From: an uncultured Pseudomonadota bacterium
Lineage (GTDB): Bacteria > Myxococcota_A > UBA796 > SXON01
NCBI GenBank assembly: GCA_903844155.1
Contig: CAIMSU010000009.1
Location: forward strand, 1-64,000
Reading direction: 5' to 3'
DNA length: 64,000 nt
The notes beneath the pieces were generated by a model that was given only the letters and a program-made list of their open reading frames with translations, was not told the origin of the DNA and made no database searches. Each line of letters begins with the position of its first letter. The stretch's first letter is position 1. The position numbers and the translations under genes were made by a program. Shown here one piece after another: positions 2,402 to 13,301 of this stretch.

Positions 2402-2773
2402 ATGAACATCCTGTTGTGGGTCCTCCAGGTGCTCGCCGCAGTCCTATTCGGAGCGTCCGGCGTCATGAAGGTGTTCATGTTCGACAAGGTGAGCGGGGAC
2501 GTTCCGTCGTTCGGCGCGCTGCCGAAGCGGGCGTGGATGGCGCTTGGCATCATCGAGCTGGTCTGCACGTTTGGGCTGATCATTCCGGGCGCGTTGCACT
2601 GGCAGGCGGGGCTCACGGGCGTGGCGGCGGCGGTGCTCGCGGGCGAGAGCGTCGTGTTCGTCTGGGTACACGTCAAGTACACGGAGATCCCGCCCATTGT
2701 CTTCAGCGCGGGGCTGGGCCTCGTGATGGCGTTCGTAGCGTACGGGCGGATGGTGTTGCTGCCGCTGTCCTGA
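2402..2773 (+). CDS. DoxX-like small membrane protein
   Basis: 123 aa, almost wholly hydrophobic, with four predicted membrane segments and the DoxX_2-type opening (LLWVLQVLAAVLFGASGVMKV) and middle (MALGIIELVCTFGLIIPG). Length and pattern fit the DoxX/DoxD-like family, whose members sit in the inner membrane, some linked to redox or thiosulfate chemistry. The role here is unknown. Purine-rich sequence just upstream (GGAAAGGGGTAGAG) can serve as ribosome binding site. The stop codon is followed immediately by the first copy of a 96-bp repeat. Confidence 0.8.
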   Translation: MNILLWVLQVLAAVLFGASGVMKVFMFDKVSGDVPSFGALPKRAWMALGIIELVCTFGLIIPGALHWQAGLTGVAAAVLAGESVVFVWVHVKYTEIPPIVFSAGLGLVMAFVAYGRMVLLPLS

Positions 2774-2869
2774 CAGCGCGCGGGGGCTGGTCGTCTCGCG
2801 AGCGGCGTCGGGGTAAAGCGGCGTTCCACATGGGTTCTGGATCGGCGCCGGGCTGAGCGAGCCGCCCAA
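2774..2869. repeat. 96-bp direct repeat, copy 1
   Basis: Begins one base after the DoxX stop codon. It matches 5737-5832 over 96 bases with five substitutions (about 95% identical) and no gaps. It contains a CTCGCGAG palindrome and GGCGCC. The minus strand of both copies is open in the same frame, but no start, codon signal or known protein supports a gene. Confidence 0.9.
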
Positions 2870-3000
2870 CGGGTCGACGCAGCCGGCAAGCCGCCTCAAT
2901 CCGCCGACAACGTGCCCGGAACACGGACGAGTTGCTGGTGCGGTGAGGGGCGCGCGCCTTGGGGGACAAAACTGGCCTCGCAAGGCCTGGGTCCGCGTGA

Positions 3001-3165
3001 TCAGAGCGGCGCGGGGAAGTCGACGGTGGGCGGGTCGTGCGGAATGCCGACGTCGACCTTCGCCTTGTCCGCCACGCCGCTCAGCTTGCAGATGTCGGCG
3101 TCCTTCACCTTGGCGGCGGACTCTTTGAGCGTCCAGACGACGAAGTGTCGCTGGTTCTGGATCCA
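3001..3165 (-). pseudogene. C-terminal fragment of an unknown protein
   Basis: A minus-strand frame of about 54 codons ends at 3001 (last residues VDFPAPL). It has near-perfect GC third positions and plausible protein sequence (NQRHFVVWTLKESAAKVKD; CKLSGVADKAKVDVGIP). No credible start or ribosome site precedes it, and the reading becomes non-protein-like beyond 3170, where the promoter of the next gene should lie. It is probably the surviving 3' end of a broken gene; the family is unknown. Confidence 0.4.
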
Positions 3166-3216
3166 CGCGCCAGCACTGGCCCCCCGGCATCGTCCGCGGG
3201 GTGGTATTCTTCCGCC

Positions 3217-4449
3217 ATGCTCCTTGCCCTCCTCGGCTGCAGCCCGGACCCGGTCTCGCAGGTCGTTCGTTCGCGGGAGCCCAACGTGGACATTTCCCCT
3301 GTCGACCACGAGCCCGTGACCGCGGACTGGACGGTCGATTGCGACGGTTCGGCTGACTTTTCCACGATCTCCGAGGCGATCGCCGCCGCGTCCAGCGAGC
3401 AGACGATCGACGTCCACCCCTGCACGTACGCCGAGAACATCGACTTTGGCGGCAAGTCGCTCGCGATTCGGGCGACCGGAGACGCGACGGACACGATGAT
3501 CGCGGCCAGGAGCGGCTCGGTGGTGACCGCGGTCTCGGGCGAGGGGGAGGGAACGTCGCTGACGGGGTTCACGCTCACGGGCGGGACGGCGGACACCGGG
3601 TCGGCGGTGTACATGAACTTCACCGCGTTGCGGCTGGAAGATGACGTGATCACCGGCGACCGGGGGTCGGAGCTCGTGTACGCAGCTTCGGCGGACCTGG
3701 AGCTGGAGAATGTGACCTTCCTGGCGAACAGCTTCGGGCGGGGGGTGCTGGTGTACCTGGACCGCGGCGGCCTGACCGTGGACCATTCCTCCTTGTACTG
3801 CGAGAACGGGGGCTACGGCGTCTACGCCGGGCACGGGGCGGTGTACGTCGACAATTCGAACTTCGTCTGCGTGGGCGCGTACGCCAGCTACTGGAACCAC
3901 ACCGTTGGACGCCTGAAGCGCACCCTCATCGAGGGGACGGTGGTGGTCGAGTCGGAGACGGATCACCCGGACGACGCCCTCACGCTCGAGAACAGCGTGA
4001 TCAGCGGCGCGCTCTCGGCGAACTACGGCAGCCTGATCGTGACGAACAGCATCGTCGACGGGCCGGTGTCGATGACGAACACGGACACCAGCTCCCGCGT
4101 GGAAGGCTCGGTGTTCACCGGGTACAGTTGCGCGCTCACCAGCACCCCGCTCACGGTCGATGACACGGCCGACACTGCACCCGGCGTTCCGGTCGCCCCA
4201 TTCACGGTGCGCAACAACATCTTCTGGGGTGTGTCGTCCAACTGTAGCGGCGACGAGTATGTCGGCACCGCTGGCAACCTCTCCGCGGACCCGCTGTTCG
4301 TCGACTGGTCGCGGTACGACTGGCACCTCACCGCCGGCAGCCCCGCGATCGACGCCGGCCCGAGCGACACGGGCTACGCGGACGTGGACGGTAGCCCCAA
4401 CGACATCGGCGTCTACGGCGGCCACGGCAGCCTGGACGGTGGCTGGTGA
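3217..4449 (+). CDS. Right-handed beta-helix lipoprotein (first of a tandem pair)
   Basis: 410 aa. It starts with a very short lipoprotein signal (MLLALLGC, Cys8). The body opens with VDCDGSADFSTISEAIAAAS and continues with repeating short strands rich in Thr, Val, Gly and Asn (LTGFTLTGGTADTGSAVYM and similar), the pattern of pectin-lyase-like parallel beta-helices of the right_handed_beta_helix (PF13229) type. It ends with DWHLTAGSPAIDAGPSDTGY ... DIGVYGGHG, a common finish for such surface proteins. Ligand unknown. Its stop overlaps the GTG start of the next gene (GTGA at 4446-4449), a paralog, so the two are probably translationally coupled. Confidence 0.75.
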   Translation: MLLALLGCSPDPVSQVVRSREPNVDISPVDHEPVTADWTVDCDGSADFSTISEAIAAASSEQTIDVHPCTYAENIDFGGKSLAIRATGDATDTMIAARSGSVVTAVSGEGEGTSLTGFTLTGGTADTGSAVYMNFTALRLEDDVITGDRGSELVYAASADLELENVTFLANSFGRGVLVYLDRGGLTVDHSSLYCENGGYGVYAGHGAVYVDNSNFVCVGAYASYWNHTVGRLKRTLIEGTVVVESETDHPDDALTLENSVISGALSANYGSLIVTNSIVDGPVSMTNTDTSSRVEGSVFTGYSCALTSTPLTVDDTADTAPGVPVAPFTVRNNIFWGVSSNCSGDEYVGTAGNLSADPLFVDWSRYDWHLTAGSPAIDAGPSDTGYADVDGSPNDIGVYGGHGSLDGGW

Positions 4450-5732
4450 ACCGGTTCGCGCTCGGGCTCCTCGCGTGCGCGGCCGCATGCAAGGCACCAA
4501 AAAACGCGTCGGACACCAGCACGCGGCCGGCGCACGACAGCCCGGACAGCGGCATCACGGCGCAGGACTCGGCGCTGCCGAGCGACTCGGGCGTCGACTC
4601 TGGCGACACTGGCGACAGCCCGCCCGTGTTCGTTCCCGACATCTCCGTCGATTGCACTGGGGCTGCCGATTATACGGCGATCCAGGCCGCGATCGATGCG
4701 GCGGTGAGCGGCGACGTGATTGGCGTGGCGCCGTGTGTGTACCACGAGCGGCTCGATTACCTTGGCAAGTCGCTGGAGATCTACGGGACCGACGGATCGG
4801 CGACGACGATCGTCGACGCGGACCTGCTGGGCCCGGTGCTGAGCGTCGTGTCGGGGGAGAGCGACGGCACGAGCTTGTCCGGGTTCACCCTGCAGGATGG
4901 CGTGAGTGCCGACGCTGGCGCGGGCATCACCGTCATCGAGAGCGAGCTTGGGCTCAACGATGTGGTGCTCACCGGATCGGGTGAAAGCTACGCGATCATC
5001 GATGCTGAGACGGGGTTCCTCGACCTGACCGACGTGACCATCGTGGACAACACGATCGCGGCCGGCGGGTCGGCGATCCGCTCCTCGTCCGGGAGTCTGA
5101 CCGCGCGCCGGCTGATCGCGGATTGCGGGGGTGGAAGCTACGCGCTCTACGAGCACAACGCGACCCTCATCGACGAGAGCGTGCTGACCTGCTCGGGAGG
5201 CTACGGCTTTTACAGTCATCACGGCGAGCTGAACGTGCTGCGCTCTACGCTGACCGGCGGAATCGCGGCGTTGTACAGTGAGGATGAGCAGGACAACCCC
5301 AGCGAGCAGACGCTCATCACCAACAGTGCGCTCGGCGGGGGCCTGGTTGGCGTGGATGCGCGGTACGTGCACGTGGAGCTGCGGAACGACGTGCTGTGGG
5401 GGACAGACGCCGCGTTCTCGTACCTGGCCATCGACACCGCGTCGAGTGTGAGCGACACGGCGCTCCTGGACGCCGCCTGCGGGATCTCCGGGGACTCCGG
5501 CACGCTCTCCATCACGTGGAGCGCGTTTTTCGGCAACGCGGCGGACACGTGCGGCGCGTACGCGACACCCACCGTCACCACGGATCCGAGGTTTACCAGC
5601 TTTCCAGACGACCTGACGCTCCAGTCGGGCAGCCCCTGGATCAACGCGGGTGACCCCTCCGCCGCAGCCGATGACGGCGACGGCACACGCGACGACATCG
5701 GGCGCTGGGGCGGGCCGTTCGCGAGCTTGTGA
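4446..5732 (+). CDS. Right-handed beta-helix lipoprotein (second of a tandem pair)
   Basis: 428 aa with a lipoprotein signal MNRFALGLLACAAAC (Cys15) and an Asp/Ser/Thr-rich linker. The body matches its upstream neighbour in order and motif: VDCTGAADYTAIQAAIDAA, LDYLGKSLEIYGTDGSATT, SGESDGTSLSGFTLQDG, and the ending GSPWINAGDPS ... DIGRWGG. The pair arose by tandem duplication. The GTG start is supported by the 4-nt overlap with the previous stop. Likely anchored in the envelope by its lipid, with the beta-helix exposed; substrate unknown. Confidence 0.75.
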   Translation: MNRFALGLLACAAACKAPKNASDTSTRPAHDSPDSGITAQDSALPSDSGVDSGDTGDSPPVFVPDISVDCTGAADYTAIQAAIDAAVSGDVIGVAPCVYHERLDYLGKSLEIYGTDGSATTIVDADLLGPVLSVVSGESDGTSLSGFTLQDGVSADAGAGITVIESELGLNDVVLTGSGESYAIIDAETGFLDLTDVTIVDNTIAAGGSAIRSSSGSLTARRLIADCGGGSYALYEHNATLIDESVLTCSGGYGFYSHHGELNVLRSTLTGGIAALYSEDEQDNPSEQTLITNSALGGGLVGVDARYVHVELRNDVLWGTDAAFSYLAIDTASSVSDTALLDAACGISGDSGTLSITWSAFFGNAADTCGAYATPTVTTDPRFTSFPDDLTLQSGSPWINAGDPSAAADDGDGTRDDIGRWGGPFASL

Positions 5733-5736
5733 GGCT

Positions 5737-5832
5737 CAGCGCGCGGGGGCTGTCAGTCTCGCGAGCGGCGTCGGGGTAAAGCGGCGTTCCGCATGGGTTT
5801 TGGATCGGCGCCGGGCTGAGCGAGCCGCCCAA
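5737..5832. repeat. 96-bp direct repeat, copy 2
   Basis: Second copy of the repeat at 2774-2869, same orientation, five substitutions. It begins four bases after the stop codon of the second beta-helix gene, just as copy 1 begins directly after the DoxX stop. The two copies therefore bound a segment of about 2.9 kb that holds a gene fragment and the two paralogous lipoproteins. Confidence 0.9.
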
Positions 5833-5901
5833 AGGAGCCCTGGACGCCACCCCCCGACCGACTCCGGCAATCCTCGATAGAGCGGCGAACCTGGAGCTCC
5901 C

Positions 5902-6243
5902 ATGGACAAGAACATGACGACGACCTGCTACCACCTCGACGGCTACCGGGTGGTGCGCAACCTCGGCATCGTGCGCGGCATCATCGTTCGCTCGCGGTCG
6001 GTGTTTGGGAGCATCGGGGCGGCGTTCCAGACGATCGTGGGGGGCGACATCACCATCCTCATGGAGCTGTGCGAGCAGACACGCCAGGGGGCGTTCGACA
6101 TGATGGTCGACCACGCCGCTGAGCGAGGCGCCAACGCGGTGATCGGCATCTCGTACGACGCGACGGAGGTCATGCAGGGGGTGACGGAGGTGCTCTGCTA
6201 CGGGACGGCGGTGGAGGTCGAGGCGCTCCCGCGGGGTCAGTGA
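5902..6243 (+). CDS. YbjQ/UPF0145 family protein
   Basis: 113 aa, the usual length for the YbjQ (PF01906) family. It has the family's signature elements: a start on an opening strand (YRVVRNLGIVRGIIVRSRS), a central GGDITILMELCEQTRQGAFDMM helix, the conserved ERGANAVIGISYD stretch and a C-terminal strand EVLCYGTAVEVE. Members form pentameric rings and are loosely called heavy-metal-binding; the cellular role is not established. Cytoplasmic. Its 3' end overlaps the convergent gene at 6237 by 7 nt. Confidence 0.85.
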   Translation: MDKNMTTTCYHLDGYRVVRNLGIVRGIIVRSRSVFGSIGAAFQTIVGGDITILMELCEQTRQGAFDMMVDHAAERGANAVIGISYDATEVMQGVTEVLCYGTAVEVEALPRGQ

Positions 6244-6983
6244 CGCTCGGGGAGGGTCGGGCGGGGACGCGGCCGGTCCAGCTCGGCGTCGGCGGACACG
6301 CGGGCGAGGAGCTCGTCGAGGCGGTCGGTCGCCTGCGAGGCGTCCTGGGCGGCGGCGAGGACGTGGAATTCGCGGAGGGTGTCGAGGAGGGCGGTGGCCT
6401 GGGCCTCGAGGGTGGCGCGGGCGCTGTCGAGGGCGAGCGCGTCGCCACCGAGCGTCTGGTGGGCGCGGGCGGATGCGGCGAGGGCGTCGAGCTTGCCGAG
6501 GATAGCGCGCAGGCCGGCGTCGATGCGCTGGGCGGCTTCGCGATGGCGGCCGTCGGGTGACGTGCCCAGTCCGTCAAGGAGCACGCGGGCGGCGAGCCAG
6601 CGGGCGTCGGTCGGCTGAGGGGCGGTCGACGGCGACGCGGTCGGCGTGACATCCCCAGCCGTCCCGCCGATCCACGCGCCGTCGACGAGCACGCGGGCGA
6701 CGGGGTGGTCCCCCTCGTAGGCCACGCTGGCGTTGATCAGCGCGTCGCGTCCCTCCGCCTCCGTCTTCCACACGAGCGTGACGCCCGAACCGGCGAGCGT
6801 GGTCTTTCGGGCCACCTCCCGGCCGTCGACGTAGAGCTGGTGGGAATTCTGGCGGGCGACGAGGCGGATCGTGCGGCCCCGCCACGTGCACGTCCACTCG
6901 GCGCGCACGCGGTCGGTCAGCGCCCAGGCGCCCGTGCCGGCGAGGGCGGCGACCGTGGCGATGGCGATGAGAGCTGCGATCAT
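6237..6983 (-). CDS. Hypothetical single-pass membrane protein
   Basis: 248 aa. One N-terminal membrane segment (residues about 2-23, MIAALIAIATVAALAGTGAW), then a beta-rich region with Trp and charged residues (EWTCTWRGRTIRLVARQNSH ... LYVDGREVARK), a Pro/Thr linker near 115-125, and an Ala/Leu/Arg-rich helical C-terminus that may be coiled coil. No family recognised. Its ATG overlaps the stop of the upstream GT-C gene by 4 nt (ATGA), so it is coupled to that gene and may work with it in the envelope. Confidence 0.65.
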   Translation of the reverse strand: MIAALIAIATVAALAGTGAWALTDRVRAEWTCTWRGRTIRLVARQNSHQLYVDGREVARKTTLAGSGVTLVWKTEAEGRDALINASVAYEGDHPVARVLVDGAWIGGTAGDVTPTASPSTAPQPTDARWLAARVLLDGLGTSPDGRHREAAQRIDAGLRAILGKLDALAASARAHQTLGGDALALDSARATLEAQATALLDTLREFHVLAAAQDASQATDRLDELLARVSADAELDRPRPRPTLPERH

Positions 6984-12656: not shown

Positions 12657-13301
12657 TTATTGGGAGATTACGATGTCGACACCTGTGTAGGTGCCGCCCG
12701 GAACCACGTCAAACGGGTTGCCGCTCCAGCCAAGCTCCGGGTCCGGCGTCGACGGCGAGCCGTCTGCGTCGATGAACCCGAACATGCCGATGCTGGTGGA
12801 CGATCCCGGCGAGAACGTGGTGGTCCACGATGCGGGCACGCCGCTGGTGGTCGGGCAGGCGATGATCGTGGTGACGAGCGGTGAGCCGGAGTGGTCGACG
12901 GTGCCGTCGGACTTCACGTAGGCGGCGTCGTAGGCCTCCACGTCGCAGTGCGGGGTTGAGCCGATGGTTCCGGTGTACGTCAGGGTGCCGGAGACGCTGA
13001 TGGCGTCGGTGTCGGTGTCGCTGTCCGTGTCAGAATCGGTGTCGGTGTCGGTGTCCGCGTCGGTGTCCGAGTCGGTGTCGGTGTCGGTGTCGGTGTCCGA
13101 ATCGGTGTCGCTGTCGGTGTCTGCGTCCGTGTCGGCGTCCACGTCCCCCGCCGTGTCGGCCAGGAGGTAGCAATACCCGTTGTCGGCACGGCCGAATCCG
13201 TCGCCGCAGGGGTCGGTGAGGGAGCCGGGGCCCGCGCAGGAGAGGGCAGGGCACAGCGCCAGCAGCAAGACGAAGGCGGGCGACGTTCGGGGGTCGGTCA
13301 T
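12657..13301 (-). CDS. Lipoprotein with Asp-X dipeptide linker
   Basis: 214 aa. Signal peptide with lipobox at LCPALSC. After a short Cys-containing head (DPCGDGFGRADNGYCYLL) comes 48 residues of pure Asp-X dipeptides (X = Thr, Ser, Ala or Val; 24 units), then a C-terminal beta-rich domain with a VSGTLTYTGTIGSTPHCDVEAYD strand pattern. The linker probably holds the domain away from the membrane and may bind calcium; function unknown. It ends 10 nt before the next start and is likely co-transcribed with it. Confidence 0.7.
   Translation of the reverse strand: MTDPRTSPAFVLLLALCPALSCAGPGSLTDPCGDGFGRADNGYCYLLADTAGDVDADTDADTDSDTDSDTDTDTDTDSDTDADTDTDTDSDTDSDTDTDAISVSGTLTYTGTIGSTPHCDVEAYDAAYVKSDGTVDHSGSPLVTTIIACPTTSGVPASWTTTFSPGSSTSIGMFGFIDADGSPSTPDPELGWSGNPFDVVPGGTYTGVDIVISQ
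13003..13146 (-). repeat. Asp-X coding microsatellite (24 x 6 bp)
   Basis: 144 bases reading, on the plus strand, as near-identical 6-mers of the form GTCGGT/GTCCGA/GTCGCT. They encode 24 consecutive Asp-X dipeptides in frame. The units vary by synonymous and Thr/Ser/Ala changes, so the tract is not freshly expanded. Confidence 0.9.

Follow-up and report, generated by a model that had tools for sequence, protein, structure and literature searches.

Two adjacent lipoprotein genes, A and B, lie between a DoxX_2-like and a YbjQ_1 gene in the window (the whole 64,000-nucleotide stretch of DNA analysed here). They have moved there from a different ancestral place, a relocation that is well supported within the limits of the draft assembly. 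The pair is enclosed by two direct 96-bp repeats, which probably stem from the duplication of one copy at the arrival of the genes. The repeat also occurs outside this locus, as part of a dispersed family of about 105 bp with some 120 recognisable copies in the genome. What looked like a gene cassette gives way to a traceable gene relocation and to a repeat family that is apparently undescribed, found in an uncultured lineage and belonging to an already known type, the short dispersed intergenic repeats. This spot records the relocation of genes, not a general gene-cassette system.

A closely matching pair of direct repeats

The two window repeats lie on the same strand and are identical at 91 of 96 bases (5 differences). 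The left copy begins at the base right after the DoxX stop codon (2771-2773), at a distance of 0 nt, and the right copy begins 4 nt past the stop codon of lipoprotein B (5730-5732). On these points the coordinates (Table 1) confirm the first-pass annotation, which had reported 96-bp direct repeats with five differences, each within a few bases of a stop codon.

Table 1. Coordinates of the features discussed, in the window unless a contig or locus is given.
Feature	Position	Strand	Remark
DoxX_2-like membrane protein gene	2402..2773	+	Stop codon abuts the left repeat copy
Left 96-bp repeat copy	2774..2869	+	Family core ~2791-2869; the 3′ extension seen in the family cannot be recognised here
Conserved box 1 GCGGCGTTCC, left copy	2818..2827	+	
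Conserved box 2 core GCCGCCC, left copy	2861..2867	+	
Open reading frame, possible gene remnant	~3001..3171	-	Search of 23 other genomes gave no relatives
Lipoprotein A, relocated	3217..4449	+	Its orthologues neighbour those of B in G001, G003, G004
Lipoprotein B, relocated together with A	4446..5732	+	Orthologues adjacent to A in G001, G003, G004
Right 96-bp repeat copy	5737..5832	+	Family element ~5754-5854, with the 3′ extension usual in the family
Conserved box 1 GCGGCGTTCC, right copy	5781..5790	+	
Conserved box 2 core GCCGCCC, right copy	5824..5830	+	
YbjQ_1 gene	5902..6243	+	Elsewhere, without A-B, in G003 and G004
Nested-palindrome loci	L143-L147, L150, L153		
Nested-palindrome sites, genome of the window (G000)	C156:46126, C109:18637, C296:9581, C137:10987, C212:198, C125:55953, C260:1700		

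The likeness of the two window copies is exceptional. Among 4560 pairs of family copies compared, they form the closest true pair, with 97% identity in the core vs 84-86% for the next pairs; one closer pair was set aside as an assembly overlap (L083/L084, see below). The best matches of the window copies outside the window reach 84% (loci L009 and L010), and neighbouring family copies elsewhere in the genome show ordinary likeness (63-72% identity). The sequence common to the window pair starts about 17 bp upstream of the 5′ edge of the family and stops short of its 3′ extension, which is still present in the right copy. This offset from both family edges argues that a piece of the locus was duplicated, rather than that two elements were inserted.

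Lipoproteins A and B are encoded by adjacent, overlapping genes. They are paralogues (35% identical) with lipoprotein-like N-termini (...LLGC and ...LLAC), and to this extent their description as two paralogous beta-helix lipoproteins stands. The beta-helix fold itself is plausible and weakly supported: a low-confidence structure model (mean pLDDT 54) and weak matches to beta-helix enzymes fit it without proving it. Where a broken gene end had been noted between the repeats, an open reading frame is present on the minus strand, its status as a broken gene being unproven.

A dispersed family with two conserved boxes

A blastn search with the repeat found 40 places in its own genome, 36 of which were used to build a sequence-only model (R1). 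Profile search of the same genome with R1 gave 136 matches at E≤0.1, including the split halves of interrupted copies. The number of recognisable copies is set at about 120 because several of these matches are halves and one is an assembly overlap. The overlap concerns loci L083 (end of contig C273) and L084 (start of C48), which share 214 bp at 99.5% identity with a family copy inside; this likeness at two contig ends most likely reflects one copy counted twice.

What can be recognised of the element begins about 27 bp before GCGGCG and extends to about 30 bp past the start of GCCGCC. Two near-invariant boxes, GCGGCGTTCC and GAGCGAGCCGCCC, stand on either side of a variable spacer, and the 3′ box is mostly followed by AAAGGA (alignments A1 and A3). 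The median identity among copies is 64%, suggesting that the family is probably old. A coding role was rejected, as single-base indels separate the copies and reading frames are not kept. A family copy does stand in frame within a large DNA-methylase-like gene, both in the genome of the window (L107:3022-3106) and in G003 (L125:3022-3098), where it encodes MQSGVP.PD.ER..AEQAAQ shortly ahead of a DPAMGSGSFL motif; this arrangement is comparable to the Rickettsia palindromic elements.

A second model, built solely from copies of the congener KTt_bin-1053 (G003), found 47 copies in that genome, 95 in the genome of the window and none in the congeners G001, G002 and G004. Searching 37 relatives with R1 gave matches in G003 only, plus a marginal one in G036. 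The exact two-box pattern, searched in about 85,000 species genomes, was found in KTt_bin-1053 (five stretches) and in three single low-scoring matches elsewhere that look like chance; viral contigs contained no exact match. The history of the family is patchy, since G001 groups with the genome of the window and yet carries no copies.

Family copies are intergenic in 98 of 102 cases, as counted with a simple codon-usage gene caller, in surveyed loci that are about 89% coding (p ~7e-87 against an estimated 11% of non-coding DNA). In gaps between co-directional genes, the median distance of a copy is 14 nt to the upstream stop codon vs 68 nt to the downstream start codon (p=0.0009); the position close behind stop codons, first noted for the window pair, is thus true of the whole family. 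Orientation relative to genes is balanced (18 same vs 23 opposite), which argues against an oriented terminator or cassette site. The family is scattered over many contigs, mostly as single copies; the clustering statistics, like those on synteny below, rest on a set of sampled loci. At two sites where G003 keeps the neighbouring genes together, the genome of the window has a copy in the gap and G003 has none; judged against these two empty sites, the element edges are blurred.

No folding signal was detected. With RNA parameters, 93 copies folded on both strands gave mean z values of 0.03 and -0.08 against dinucleotide shuffles, and the left window copy folded with DNA parameters gave -0.5 and -0.7. 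The one pair returned by RNAalifold was the invariant GCGGC/GCCGC, which shows no covariation, and these invariant segments are paired in just 8 of the 93 predicted structures. The top column pairs in a covariation scan of the family were mostly not base pairs. A search of Rfam with the window and eight copies gave nothing credible, and a structured RNA family was rejected for want of a match and of covarying pairs.

ERIC, RUP and Correia elements and MITEs are short interspersed intergenic repeats of bacteria. The family resembles them in its length of about 100 bp, its non-coding nature, its tens to hundreds of copies, its intergenic position near gene ends, its restriction to one lineage and the lack of a transposase of its own; being multi-copy, about 100 bp long and intergenic, it can be placed among the short dispersed intergenic (ERIC-like) repeats. 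It differs from them in that terminal inverted repeats, a target duplication and a parental transposon were not recognised, and in giving no folding signal. An all-against-all comparison of about 100 loci revealed no larger parental element. The exact ends of the element could not be fixed, and neither a donor scar nor a target-site duplication could be delimited. Its copies carry no transposase and none was linked to them.

Relocation of the lipoprotein genes

In G001, G003 and G004, A-B follows infC, L20 (rplT), an HU-like gene, MerR and AhpD, the upstream genes being the same in all three genomes, and A-B is in turn followed by a HYDIN-like gene in G001 and G003. No family copy lies near A-B in these three genomes. 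In the genome of the window, the infC-rplT-MerR-AhpD genes are located on contigs C301 and C339 without A-B, and only about 497 bp, occupied by another open frame, separate AhpD from the HYDIN-like gene. Clear A-B orthologues in this genome were found in the window only, between DoxX and YbjQ. YbjQ and 6237-6983 form a conserved unit, which occurs elsewhere in G003 and G004, and the DoxX-YbjQ adjacency is not seen in these two genomes either.

L20, HU, MerR, A and B each support the quartet that groups the genome of the window with G001, and G003 with G004. The same quartet for A-B and for the marker genes indicates vertical inheritance of A-B as the likeliest course, with the move on the branch of the window's own genome. 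The comparison of loci with and without the genes places A-B elsewhere in three relatives and shows the old site to lack the pair here. The first-pass annotation had proposed a recombination or duplication unit, perhaps a site-specific cassette. The movement of A-B agrees with this proposal; the cassette itself is not supported, in view of the presence of A-B without boundary repeats in G001, G003 and G004, an outcome that the annotation had itself named as refuting its proposal, and of a family that is dispersed, mostly single-copy, and without hairpin or attC order.

The genome of the window is a draft of 375 contigs, and the layout of the old site, which spans C301 and C339, is partly inferred. 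In such a draft a mis-join at the repeats is conceivable; the five differences between the window copies argue against it.

How the genes may have reached their present place

In the account that we favour, and hold to be fairly probable as a whole, lineage-specific, non-autonomous two-box repeats of about 105 bp would have spread in the genome of the window and in KTt_bin-1053, persisting mainly just behind stop codons. One copy would have been resident between DoxX and YbjQ first. A-B, ancestrally beside infC-rplT-MerR-AhpD, would then have joined into this copy by illegitimate or repeat-mediated recombination, and its arrival would have doubled some 96-99 bp of the target, so that A-B came to lie between two direct copies. 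The edges of the shared stretch and the 97% likeness of the pair point to such an entry at a resident copy. We infer that duplication and relocation were one event, caused by recombination at the repeat.

The direct orientation of the window copies would also suit an excision followed by reintegration, in which A-B, flanked by copies at its old place, formed a circle by homologous recombination and entered the DoxX-YbjQ copy by a single crossover. AhpD at the old site indeed has a family copy next to it (C339:28771-28862). However, this copy is not especially similar to the window pair, the gap from AhpD to the HYDIN-like gene contains no copy, and the sequence that the pair shares beyond the 5′ edge of the family is unexpected for two unrelated copies. 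We regard this route as unlikely. Alternatively, gene conversion or a local duplication could have produced the repeat pair, A-B having moved separately, for example by general rearrangement; the lack of the DoxX-YbjQ adjacency in G003 and G004 would fit a generally rearranged region. Two independent events are nevertheless quite unlikely, since no true pair among the copies compared is closer than this one, and it encloses precisely the relocated genes.

Entry of A-B at a resident copy, as we propose, raises the question of gene order around other copies. Gene adjacency with G003 is kept across 3 of 13 copies vs 13 of 21 control gaps (Fisher p=0.039) and vs 32 of 51 among all controls, which are neighbouring pairs (Fisher p=0.014). 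This small sample covers 800 kb of G003 (~11% of that genome), scores a missing orthologue as a break and includes the A-B locus itself among the 13 copies; it is suggestive of a general association of repeat copies with gene-order changes. The family combines two conserved DNA boxes with no known enzyme, a preference for gene ends and possibly one for changed gene order. Should the conserved boxes be a sign of protein recognition, the two family-carrying genomes are where the recognising protein could be sought. It is improbable, in our estimation, that a mobilising or recombining enzyme recognises the two-box element and can carry neighbouring genes, so that pairs of elements move host genes like A-B and help to reshuffle gene order genome-wide.

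Mobilisation of the repeats as REP/REPIN elements by a RAYT transposase is very improbable. Five genes for RAYT-like Y1 transposases are present in the genome (L141/L159, L142/L158, L160, L161 and L162), and REPs are likewise intergenic and near gene ends. The family also resembles REPs and REPINs (PMC3116915, PMC3733652) in its two conserved boxes, inverted GCGGC core, variable spacer and intergenic position, but differs from them in folding no better than chance, in flanking no RAYT gene and in occurring in a genome (G003) without a relative of these RAYTs. None of the five RAYT genes has a copy of the 96-bp family in its flanks, and four have distinct short palindromes of their own beside them. 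G003 holds its 47 copies with no relative of the RAYTs at E≤1e-5, whereas G001 and G004 possess RAYTs and no copies. A cognate RAYT was rejected on these two grounds, and the hairpin of an inverted REP doublet on the rarity of core pairing in the predicted structures.

The attC sites of integrons follow genes and have conserved outer boxes with a variable middle. The family is like them in these respects, and gene cassettes with attC-type recombination sites can nearly be dismissed: the boxes GCGGCGTTCC (5′) and GAGCGAGCCGCCC (3′) do not fit RYYYAAC...GTTRRRY and stand in the wrong order, the single-strand hairpins looked for are not seen (z ~0 over 93 copies), and the copies, in both orientations relative to genes, are dispersed and mostly single.

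A palindrome nested in the family, and a further array

A second repeat, a 75-bp REPIN-like palindrome (GTACGAAAACGGACGATGTCA...), is nested in several copies of the 96-bp family, between the two boxes and at about the same position in each host copy (Table 1). Most inserts share 88-97% of their bases, more than the host arms do, which suggests that the palindrome was inserted repeatedly into one site of the family. REP dimers inside palindromes have been reported (PMC3733652). The RAYT gene at C268:23801 is flanked by units like this nested repeat. Within the window, a dense array of CGGTGTC units, spaced 12-18 bp apart, occupies positions 12941-13162.
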